Origin: Geobacteraceae bacterium
GTDB lineage: Bacteria > Desulfobacterota > Desulfuromonadia > Geobacterales > Geobacteraceae
Reading direction: 5' to 3'
Length of the DNA: 64,000 bases
NCBI GenBank assembly: GCA_023701365.1
Contig: JAMPXD010000002.1
Span: 1-64,000, forward strand
In this document: positions 25,079-60,517 of the stretch, one piece after another
Position numbering within the stretch: position 1 is the stretch's first letter
Layout: the number at the start of each line of letters is the position of its first letter
Program-made: the position numbers and the translations under genes
Notes under the pieces: generated by a model
What the model saw: the letters and a program-made list of their open reading frames with translations, nothing else
Told to the model about the DNA's origin: nothing
Databases searched by the model: none

Positions 25079-26347
25079 CTACGACTGCGCCAATACTTTC
25101 TTCAATGTTTCGGCAAGCGCAGCGCCGTCGCGGAAACCGTCCATTTTCCCGGCCACGCTACCGTCGGCATTGAGGAGCAGCACCAGGGGGAAGCCCGACT
25201 GGCCATAGCGGGCCTTGTATTCCTTCTGCCTGTCCGAATTGACCTTCACCCATACGAACCGGTCACGCAGGTTCTTGACCCTGGGATCTTCCAGGCTTTC
25301 GCTGAAGAGCTTCCGGCACCAGTTGCACCAGTCGGCGTAGAGGACCAGCACCGCCGGCCTGTTCTCCCTGCGGGCAGCGGCAAGCCCCGCATCATGGTCC
25401 TCCTGCCAGGGCAGGGTCACCATCCTCAGCCTCGATCCCTTGGTGAGCGAGACGACTTCCAGGTCGAGGAGAAGGTCCCTTCCCGCCAGCGGGTGGTTGA
25501 AATCGACCGTGAAGGTGTCGTTGTCCACGACGGCAACCCGCCCCTCCCGGGACTCGACCTCGAACCGGGCGCCGCTGCGCGGCGAGAGGGTGAGGTTCAC
25601 CTTCTCCCCATCGACCCCGACGGTGACGGAGCCGAAGCTCTCCTCGAAGCGCTCGCCGTCCCTGGCGACCATCTCCAGCTTCACGTCGCGCTCGCCGACC
25701 TCGGCGACCCGCCCGGCCACGTAGGGGGAGAGCCGCACCTCTTTCCCCGGCGAGGGGAATCCCTCGAAATGTTGCACGTACTCTGCGGCGCTGAGGCGGA
25801 TGGTGCGGGGCATGGATTTGATCCGCGGAAAGGTGACCCTCTTTGCCGGGTCGATGGGACCGTACCCCTTGTCGGCGGAGATCTTCACCCGCTTCTTCCC
25901 GCCCGCGGCCATCCCGGCCAGCGCGTCCCCGATCCCCGGCGGCTCCGATGGCGCGCCGGCCACGACTTCGACCGGGGCGAACCCCTGCTGCTCCCGGTAA
26001 GCCTCGCTCTTTTTGCGGCCCTTGTCACTGGCGGCCTCCGCGAAGGTCGTCCCGACGAGAGAGCCGTCCTCCAAGGTGAGGACGTAGTTGACCTGCACCA
26101 GGTCTCCCGGCTGCACCCGCGCCGGGTCCTCGTCGAGATCGATGCTCACAGCCTTGCCGCCGTTCTCACCGGCCTCCCTGACGGCATCCTCGAGGCGCTT
26201 CCGGACCTCGGCAAGGCCCGGCTTATCGGAAGCTCCCGCAGGGGGCTGGCAACAGGGCTTTCCGTCCTCCGCACGGGAGTGCGGCGCGGCGGAAAGAAGA
26301 AGAGCGGCGACGAGCAGTGACAAGATGAATGGTTTTTTCGAAAGCAT
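25079..26347 (-). CDS. Periplasmic FKBP-type prolyl isomerase fused to a thioredoxin domain
   Basis: A 422-residue protein. The signal peptide ends near APHSRAEDG, followed by CC. Residues about 80-180 are FKBP-like (VQPGDLVQVNYVLTLEDGSLVGTT, DALAGMAAGGKKRVKI). Residues about 200-300 resemble the SlyD flap and end with the hallmark DFNHPLAGRDLLLDLEVV. Residues about 312-422 form a thioredoxin fold with YADWCNWCRK (CxxC) and cis-Pro in SGFPLVLLLN. One chain thus offers proline isomerisation and disulfide chemistry. It lies 30 bases before tpsB, so a role in keeping the adhesin or motor parts foldable in the periplasm is a reasonable inference. Confidence 0.85.
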   Translation of the reverse strand: MLSKKPFILSLLVAALLLSAAPHSRAEDGKPCCQPPAGASDKPGLAEVRKRLEDAVREAGENGGKAVSIDLDEDPARVQPGDLVQVNYVLTLEDGSLVGTTFAEAASDKGRKKSEAYREQQGFAPVEVVAGAPSEPPGIGDALAGMAAGGKKRVKISADKGYGPIDPAKRVTFPRIKSMPRTIRLSAAEYVQHFEGFPSPGKEVRLSPYVAGRVAEVGERDVKLEMVARDGERFEESFGSVTVGVDGEKVNLTLSPRSGARFEVESREGRVAVVDNDTFTVDFNHPLAGRDLLLDLEVVSLTKGSRLRMVTLPWQEDHDAGLAAARRENRPAVLVLYADWCNWCRKLFSESLEDPRVKNLRDRFVWVKVNSDRQKEYKARYGQSGFPLVLLLNADGSVAGKMDGFRDGAALAETLKKVLAQS

Positions 26348-52449: not shown

Positions 52450-52607
52450 TTATGGATACCTCGTGCAATGTCAAATAAGTACAGATTAAGTATAGTCATT
52501 GCCGGGGAAAACTGCAAGGGCTGCGCCAGCGGCCCCCTCCTTGACTTGCCGGAAAGCTCGGCTAATCTTGGTGGTGAGCATCAAATTTACCGGAAGGAGG
52601 TTTCACC

Positions 52608-53171
52608 ATGGGAATCATCGTATGGGAGTCGGAGCTGAACAAGTCCCTGACCCGCGGCCAGGCGGAGAAAAAGCCGGTCCTGCTCGATTTCTTCAACCCC
52701 GGCTGAATAGGCTGCAAACAGATGGGTGCAGTTACGTACCCCAATGAAAAGGTGGCGGATTTCGTGACGAGCCGGCTGGTGCCGCTCCAGGTGCCCTCGG
52801 ACAGTTCGCTGGCGGCTGATTTCAAGGTCAAGTGGACCCCCACCATCATCGTCCTCGACTACTACGGCAGGGAGCACCAGCGCACGGTCGGCTTCTTCCC
52901 CCCCGAGGAGTTCATCCCGTCGCTGCTGCTGGGGATGGGGAAGGTCGACTTCGACACCGATCAGTTCAACGACGGCATCCTCCATTTCGATGCGCTCCTG
53001 AAGGAATACCCGAGGAGCGCAGCCGCGCCGGAGGCGATCTACCTCCGCGGGGTGAGCCGCTACAAGTCCTCCCACAATGCCGCCCCCCTCAAGGAGGCGT
53101 ATGAAAAACTGAAAGCCGACTATCCGGCGAGCGAATGGACCAAGCGGGCCGAGCCCTATGGCCTGCTCTAG
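52608..53171 (+). CDS. Thioredoxin-fold selenoprotein with UxxC motif (in-frame TGA)
   Basis: ATG 52608 has a strong ribosome site (aaggagg, seven bases). The frame runs to codon 33, TGA at 52704-52706, and continues in the same frame to TAG 53169-53171, 187 residues in all. Around the TGA the product reads LLDFFNPGUIGCKQM, exactly where thioredoxins have FxxxWCxxCKxM, so the TGA replaces the first redox Cys (U33, C36). The fold continues with FKVKWTPTIIVLDYYGRE, including the cis-Pro (WTP). Residues about 120-185 add a helical TPR-like tail (HFDALLKEYPRSAAAPEAIYLRG). A SelA gene is in the window. It is probably a cytosolic redox protein, as no signal peptide is seen. Without selenocysteine insertion the product would be a 32-residue stub. 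Confidence 0.88.
52710..52733 (+). promoter_or_regulatory. Candidate bacterial SECIS hairpin
   Basis: Just after the TGA, ctgca (52712-52716) pairs with tgcag (52727-52731), extended by two G-U pairs, around the ten-base loop aacagatggg. Its place within about 30 bases downstream of the UGA and the G/U-rich apical loop fit a SelB-binding element. The stem is short, so this is only a candidate. Confidence 0.55.
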
Positions 53172-53204
53172 GCTGTTAGTCCGCAACTGTGCCGATATGG
53201 AAAT

Positions 53205-53232
53205 CGGGGGCCTCGTCGCCCCCCTTTTTTTT
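53205..53232 (+). terminator. Rho-independent terminator after the selenoprotein gene
   Basis: gggggc (53206-53211) pairs with gcccccc (53218-53224), followed by eight T. The rest of the spacer, 53233-53581, shows no gene; it has a gcgcgc/cgcgcaagcgcg-rich patch near 53430-53460. Confidence 0.85.
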
Positions 53233-59067: not shown

Positions 59068-59134
59068 GGGAAAGGTTAGCGGCCCGTGCAGATTCGCTTG
59101 ACAGCGGGATGATCGCGAAGGTATCTTGGTGGCC

Positions 59135-60517
59135 ATGCTGAAAAACATCCCGAAAGTCGACAAGGTGCTGGAGTGGCCGGCGGTCAAGGTCCTGCTCGGC
59201 GATTACCCCCGGCCGGTCCTGGTCAAGGCGGTGCGCGCCGTCCTGGCGGCGGTGCGAGGCGAGCTCATGGCGGGGGAAGCGGGCCACGAGGCGCTCACGG
59301 AGAGCGGCGTAGCCGAGCGGGTGCGCCGGGAGCTGGCCGCGGCCGGCGCCTTCAGCCTGAAGCGGGTGGTGAACGGCACCGGGGTGGTGATACATACCAA
59401 TCTCGGCCGCTCTCCCCTGCCGGAGACGGTCCGGCAGACCCTGCTCGACGTCGCCTTCGGCTACTCGAACCTGGAGTTCGACCTGGAGCGGGGCGAGCGG
59501 GGGAGCCGCTATTCCCATGTGGAACGGCTCCTGTGCGAGCTGACCGGCGCCGAGGCGGCGCTGGTGGTGAACAACAATGCGGCAGCGGTCCTCCTCGCCC
59601 TGTCGGCCCTGGCGGCCGGCCGGGAGGCGGTGGTCTCCCGGGGCGAGCTGGTGGAGATCGGCGGCTCGTTCCGAATCCCCGACGTGATGCGGCAGAGCGG
59701 CGCCATCCTCAGGGAGGTCGGCGCCACCAACCGGACCCACCCCCGCGATTACCGCAACGCCGTGACCCCTGAGACCGGCCTCCTCCTCAAGGTCCATACC
59801 AGCAATTTCGCCCTGGTCGGCTTTACCTCCGAAGTCACCGCCCATGAGCTGGTCGACATCGGCCGGGAGTTCTCCCTGCCGGTCATGGCCGACGTCGGGA
59901 GCGGCAACCTGGTCGATCTCGCCCGGATCCTGGGGGGTGGGGAGCCGACCGTGCAGGAGTTCGTCCGCGCCGGGGTGGACGTGGTCACCTTCAGCGGCGA
60001 CAAGCTCCTCGGCGGACCCCAGGCGGGGATCATCGTCGGCAGGAAGAACTGGCTGGAGCTGATGAAGAAGCACCCACTGCTGCGGGCGGTGCGGATCGAC
60101 AAGCTGACCCTGGCCGCGCTGGAAGGGACCCTGCGGCTCTACCGCGACGAGCGCCAGGCCCTCGCCGAGATCCCGACCTTGCGGATGCTCGCGGCGACCG
60201 CTCCCGAGCTGGCCGCCCGCGGCAGGAAACTCCTGCGGCGGCTGCGCCGGGCTGTCCCGGCGACGGTCAGCCTGACTCTGGTGGACGGCACCTCCCAGGT
60301 GGGAGGGGGGGCACTTCCGTTGCTGGAGCTGCCGACGTCCCTGATCTCGGTGGAGGTGGCGGGGGTCTCGGCTCAGAAGCTGGAGGTCATGCTGCGCAGG
60401 CGCGATGTTCCCGTTGTCGGCAGGATCTGGAAGGAGAGGTTTCTCCTCGATCTCCGCACCATCATGGACGACGACCTCCCCCTGCTCCTCTCCGCGCTCA
60501 GCTCCCTCGGGAAATGA
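59135..60517 (+). CDS. selA: L-seryl-tRNA(Sec) selenium transferase
   Basis: About 460 residues; ATG 59135 is used, but TTG 59126 or GTG 59129 are possible as aagg lies just before them. This PLP enzyme turns seryl-tRNA(Sec) into selenocysteinyl-tRNA. Motifs: VVNGTGVVIHTNLGRSPL, FGYSNLEFDLERGERGSR, VVNNNAAAVLL, REVGATNRTH, VMADVGSGNL and the PLP-Lys in TFSGDKLLGGPQAGI. Full length. selB, selD and tRNA-Sec are not in the window. The selenoprotein at 52.6 kb needs this enzyme. Confidence 0.96.
   Translation: MLKNIPKVDKVLEWPAVKVLLGDYPRPVLVKAVRAVLAAVRGELMAGEAGHEALTESGVAERVRRELAAAGAFSLKRVVNGTGVVIHTNLGRSPLPETVRQTLLDVAFGYSNLEFDLERGERGSRYSHVERLLCELTGAEAALVVNNNAAAVLLALSALAAGREAVVSRGELVEIGGSFRIPDVMRQSGAILREVGATNRTHPRDYRNAVTPETGLLLKVHTSNFALVGFTSEVTAHELVDIGREFSLPVMADVGSGNLVDLARILGGGEPTVQEFVRAGVDVVTFSGDKLLGGPQAGIIVGRKNWLELMKKHPLLRAVRIDKLTLAALEGTLRLYRDERQALAEIPTLRMLAATAPELAARGRKLLRRLRRAVPATVSLTLVDGTSQVGGGALPLLELPTSLISVEVAGVSAQKLEVMLRRRDVPVVGRIWKERFLLDLRTIMDDDLPLLLSALSSLGK

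Follow-up and report, generated by a model that had tools for sequence, protein, structure and literature searches.

A probable selenoprotein with a thioredoxin-like domain and a TPR-like tail in Geobacteraceae and its relatives across the phylum

The stretch of Geobacteraceae DNA analysed here (the window, 64,000 nucleotides of contig JAMPXD010000002.1) raises the question of whether one of its TGA codons ends a reading frame or is translated within it as selenocysteine (Sec), and what kind of protein would result. The gene at 52608-53171 on the forward strand, delimited with the help of its homologues, runs for 187 codons through a single TGA (52704-52706, residue 33) to a TAG stop at 53169-53171, the frame being open from the TGA to that stop. 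With the TGA read through, the product has 187 residues (MGIIVWESELNK...DFFNPGUIGCKQM...WTPT...PYGLL). As the initial annotation had claimed, the TGA stands at the first redox position with cysteine three residues on: the putative Sec33 and the presumed resolving Cys36 (TGC, 52713-52715) form a UIGC motif. The strong start that it described is also there, since a Shine–Dalgarno (SD) sequence AGGAGG (52595-52600) lies 7 nt before ATG 52608, and in 49 of 50 loci from the order the match at this position reaches 5-6 of 6 nucleotides. The mechanical list of open reading frames, in line with what was foreseen for automatic annotation, holds only a 149-residue frame from the internal ATG at 52722-52724 (Met39), which has no good SD sequence and leaves out the first active-site residue. 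Forty TGA codons in the window lie 20 or more codons beyond an upstream start and are followed by 100 or more open codons; of these, TGA 52704-52706 is the only one combined with an SD match of at least 5/6 and a UxxC or CxxU motif; this uniqueness and the homologues described below rule out a chance open frame. On the opposite strand, a merely open antisense frame of 199 codons (52587-53186) spans the whole gene.

Homologues were sought with the window protein in 141 genomes of the order, and 50 of them had matches with E values of 1e-10 or below. Of these genomes, 49 contributed one locus each and G053 a second one, so that fifty loci were taken; G082 was left out, as it gave a 61-residue end piece alone. 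The column of the TGA contains TGA in 30 loci, TGC in 13, TGT in 7, and no other codon, and Cys at +3, Phe at −5 and Met at +6 are each found in 50/50. The alignment with cysteine homologues, named beforehand as a check, thus showed cysteine replacing Sec in 20 of the 50 loci and TGA in the other 30. Coding on both sides of the TGA was likewise borne out, dN being below dS both upstream and downstream in 10 hand-picked pairs, in one of which upstream dS was saturated. A profile made from 30 members of the order (A3) had matches in 108 of the 395 genomes of the phylum to which it was applied. Full-length matches, defined as reaching profile position 180 or beyond, numbered 89 (rows counted by hand), 78 with one TGA and 11 with no stop; 46 of the further loci were examined. 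In the final set, all 63 Sec-type proteins, which come from many families of the phylum, have exactly one TGA, located in UxxC. The 31 non-Sec rows are the 20 CxxC forms of the order and 11 relatives from elsewhere in the phylum, three with CxxC and eight with CxxS or no cysteine.

Several other observations concern these relatives. A paralogous subfamily (L058:3992-4570, L059:3986-4567, L060:3989-4567 and L132-L134) is characterised by the motif DFW(F/Y)xGU(L/I/V)GC, and G053 carries both this and the main type. The homologue L049 (G050:C9) has an apparent frameshift near residue 143, with the remainder in another frame. A scan of genome contigs with exact back-translated patterns, by which most relatives are missed, found a single relative, in Geomobilimonas luticola; viral contigs gave 38 pattern matches, with no relative among them.

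In the phylogenetic tree of 94 rows, built in a quick and a careful version, the order's 20 Cys forms group as a single clade (100/100) that lies within the Sec forms, and the 38-row clade that holds them together with 18 Sec rows is supported at 98/84. Over the whole tree, at least four changes of the Sec/Cys label are needed. The simplest reading for Geobacterales would be one Sec-to-Cys change in this clade, accompanied by loss of the hairpin discussed below. A SelB match over the cut-off is present in 20/20 genomes of the Cys clade, so that the Sec machinery was not lost there. Nine of the 11 Cys-side relatives from outside the order form a deep separate branch. The initial annotation had regarded homologues lacking cysteine at the Sec position as evidence against a selenoprotein; none occurs among the order loci, while eight of the 11 distant relatives are of this kind, and because of their separate deep branch they are not taken as a refutation. 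In eight of the nine distant relatives L123-L131, CxxS replaces UxxC or cysteine is absent; these relatives seem to represent a branch that has lost the redox motif, the profile match nevertheless spanning nearly their whole length.

A hairpin of the bSECIS type is predicted at 52724-52741 on the forward strand, where GGGTGC (52724-52729) pairs with GTACCC (52736-52741) around a loop at 52730-52735. Bacterial SECIS loops lie 16-37 nt after the TGA, and the loop G at 52731 is 25 nt after it in the window. By itself, the window's hairpin is only moderately better than chance: its z is −1.62, 13 of 200 shuffles being as good, and synonymous shuffles give p 0.043 by energy and 0.09 by stem length. 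Among the relatives, 52/63 Sec rows have a stem of at least 6 bp whose loop lies 24-26 nt after the TGA, where synonymous shuffling predicts 3.2; for the Cys-side rows the count is 7/31 against 3.5 expected. These tallies count related sequences and not independent events. Shorter stems occur in Sec rows as a 4-bp apical stem (10/63) or with 5 bp (1/63). The commonest stem of the Sec rows is GGRTGC with GTAYCC; the paralogous group has GAATACG-GGTC-CGTATTC, and in two Sec rows with Phe for Tyr both arms differ (GGAAGC/GTTTCC and GGAAAC/GTTTCC). Folding energy gives a mean z of −2.07 for 30 Sec rows, 17 of which have p at or below 0.05, and of −0.60 for 20 Cys rows, none of which does; standard pairs fill 88.4% of cells in 27 distinct Sec rows (A1) versus 57.1% in the 20 Cys rows. 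Some results speak against this pairing: changes on both sides affect only 2 of 7 pairs in the 27 Sec rows, which 160 of 500 shuffles equal, a register slid by −2 scores higher, and RNAalifold on 30 Sec rows preferred another 4-bp pairing without compensatory pairs and did not choose the bSECIS stem. Codon conservation is a weak test of the hairpin (0.64 vs. 0.53 in Sec rows, 0.83 vs. 0.76 in Cys rows), and Rfam gave no relevant match near the gene and none over threshold in the window. The hairpin that had been described behind the TGA is retained as one that goes with the TGA form of the gene across its relatives, as judged from their aligned sequences.

The predicted Sec machinery is complete in the genome: beside SelA, it has SelB on contig C264 (371 bits, over the cut-off), SelD on C167 and tRNA-Sec on C60 (78.2 bits vs. 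a cut-off of 47). The selD gene itself (L061, G000:C167:7214-8134) has one in-frame TGA and looks like a selenoprotein gene. The selA gene, named by eye from its sequence, occupies 59126-60517 on the forward strand of the window and starts 6.5 kb from the start of the Sec gene. This distance had been given correctly in the initial annotation, but its use as evidence was dropped: a selA homologue lies near about 4 of 25 other loci (three recognised by the selA frame, one by the frame opposite to selA; flanks of 4-6 kb), and the closeness is incidental. As for the immediate neighbourhood, a terminator-like hairpin with a T run (53206-53231, forward strand) is located 3′ of the gene and ends in eight T; two such sites were found in the region vs. 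1.3 in shuffles. With this hairpin behind it and an upstream neighbour in the opposite orientation, the Sec gene probably stands alone. By eye, the neighbours resemble rsmB and HtpX upstream and phospholipase D downstream. Comparison of neighbourhoods in search of an operon partner revealed neighbours common only to close relatives, none being conserved across the phylum.

The protein consists of two parts. The Thioredoxin_2 domain (PF13098) covers residues 19-103 (52662-52916) with 40.4 bits vs. a cut-off of 27 and is matched in 30/30 family members; the matches to PF13098, PF13899 and PF00085 all fall within residues 6-103. It is followed by a helical TPR-like tail (52902-53165), recognised from profile matches, the structural model and structure matches. 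TPR families match residues 107-181 of the window protein below the Pfam cut-off, and TPR_6 is found in 20/30 members at E 0.01. The model (pLDDT 96.8, pTM 0.91) combines a thioredoxin fold, in which residue 33 directly precedes helix 34-43, with tail helices 99-116, 120-133, 140-155, 159-171 and 176-186. The best Foldseek matches include E. coli YbbN (CnoX), the C-terminal domain of DsbD, and DsbH; the tail alone matches BamD and YbgF TPRs with Z of about 13, a score that helical repeats may attain through a shared arrangement. The tail residues E142, A143, G148, W177 and P183 are each present in at least 95% of the 50 order loci. The protein is probably cytosolic, as no signal peptide is apparent by eye. 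The earlier description as a thioredoxin-fold UxxC protein stands with regard to PF13098 and the UIGC motif; it had overlooked the TPR-like tail, and the class is already named in print. Elsewhere in the window, a thioredoxin-domain match at 25109-25375 (reverse strand) lies inside an uninterrupted open frame of 431 codons, and a TPR_20 search of the same genome gave five matches, whose open frames range from 643 to 1219 codons.

Selenoproteins called "thioredoxin" and "thiol:disulfide interchange protein" are both listed for G. metallireducens and G. uraniireducens in PMC1794560, the latter name also for Syntrophus aciditrophicus. Two reviews define the "thiol:disulfide interchange protein" class by PF13098 and UxxC, with WP_011366075.1 as an example (PMC9312934, PMC13188914). 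The "Thioredoxin" cluster that includes Geobacter sulfurreducens GSU3446, as given in PMC1914089, is probably the classical Sec thioredoxin. In each of four genomes searched (the window's own, G026, G047 and G051), the family of the window gene is the only TGA-bearing PF13098 match, and there is one separate TGA-bearing PF00085 match, in agreement with the two classes attributed to G. uraniireducens. The window protein resembles the "thiol:disulfide interchange protein" class in Pfam family, UxxC and taxa, and most probably belongs to it, an assignment made by elimination with WP_011366075.1 known by its description; its TPR-like tail is not mentioned in the class descriptions, as far as accessible. 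The literature search, which covered titles and text passages, found no paper that gives the sequence motif of this protein or describes a Sec thioredoxin joined to a TPR. To the class literature, in the parts available, the present analysis would add the TPR-like tail, the spread over the phylum mostly in the Sec form, and the Sec-to-Cys clade.

The classical Sec thioredoxin of the same genome (L160:1264-1560, G000:C15:1264-1560; motif WUPHC; PF00085) shares with the window protein the thioredoxin fold, UxxC and occurrence in the same genomes. However, the two are only 26% identical over 82 residues, the matched part of the classical protein has no TPR tail, and the window protein scores 33.2 bits with TIGR01068, below the cut-off of 96.8. 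The closest curated profiles are those of the DsbD C-terminal domain and TsoB, a selenoprotein resembling a rhodanese/DsbD fusion; 30/30 members match them at E 1e-5 or better. The window protein matches only the last hundred positions of these profiles, with 42.3 bits vs. 330 for DsbD (NF001419) and about 42 vs. 805 for TsoB (NF045694), and reaches the cut-off of no NCBIfam model.

Does the UGA nevertheless act as an ordinary stop, leaving a 32-residue peptide, a restart at ATG 52722 that yields 149 residues, or a pseudogene? The ORF list indeed shows just the 149-residue frame, and Met39 is invariant in 50/50 loci. But Met39 is equally invariant in the Cys forms, which carry no stop, the internal ATG has an SD match of only 2-4/6 in all 50 loci, residues 1-32 are under purifying selection, and the TGA is kept at one column across the phylum. 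The SD data together with the homologues rule out the restart, and an ordinary stop in any form appears extremely improbable. The Sec/Cys exchange, the coding constraint before and after the TGA, the association of the hairpin with TGA-bearing forms, and the complete Sec machinery all uphold the selenoprotein proposed initially, and a selenoprotein with a thiol-redox role is highly probable on this comparative evidence. SelB and Sec-tRNA, guided by the downstream hairpin, would read UGA 52704 as selenocysteine. Sec33, placed before the first active-site helix of the fold, would attack client proteins at disulfides or at thiols oxidised in other ways, which would thereby be reduced; Cys36 would then join Sec33 in an internal selenenylsulfide and so release the product, and a system of the thioredoxin-reductase type would recharge the protein. 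The fold and the motif are computed; the substrate, the direction of the reaction and the partner are inferred.

The tail rather more probably than otherwise docks clients or a partner, and client docking as in CnoX is suggested by analogy; a reductase with a docking tail would be the most likely role, of which a CnoX-like chaperedoxin is a bolder form. CnoX (YbbN) itself has a thioredoxin domain followed by TPRs in one chain, as predicted here, and is among the best structural matches: over both domains, Foldseek ranks first a 285-residue Salmonella "putative thioredoxin", presumably the YbbN counterpart, and third E. coli YbbN. Caulobacter CnoX combines an active thioredoxin motif and reductase role with holdase activity, according to PMC6282202. 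By this special form of the selenoprotein reading, which we consider rather unlikely, the TPR would bind unfolding proteins, UxxC would keep their cysteines reduced, and clients would be handed over to GroEL or DnaK. Yet the window protein is shorter (187 vs. about 285 residues), its TPR families are other ones, and it has Sec for Cys or Ser; the joint alignment has an rmsd of 10-12 Å. The Pfam domains TPR_19 and TPR_20 are typical of CnoX, and at E 0.01 they were detected in 1/30 and 0/30 members, respectively. A dedicated reductase or peroxidase-type enzyme, whose tail would hold one fixed partner or complex instead of many clients, is somewhat less improbable, though still doubtful: the tail is well conserved, as for a single fixed interface, but such conservation could serve the fold alone, and the phylum-wide lack of a conserved gene neighbour speaks against a fixed partner. 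The boldest version, in our view the least likely of these three, is a selenocysteine chaperedoxin spread over the phylum, a CnoX-like protein of minimal size: its TPR would hold the oxidised clients of anaerobes, and selenium chemistry instead of sulfur would rescue them upon exposure to oxidants.

The corrected reading restores a gene that a start-codon caller cuts short at the active site, and a little-noticed selenoprotein class proves widespread in its phylum. The Sec-to-Cys switch, in which the hairpin was apparently lost but SelB kept, offers matched natural pairs bearing on the role of selenium in a thioredoxin fold. If the Sec chaperedoxin were true, the purpose of selenium would be put to a natural experiment by the Geobacterales clade that changed Sec to Cys but kept SelB.
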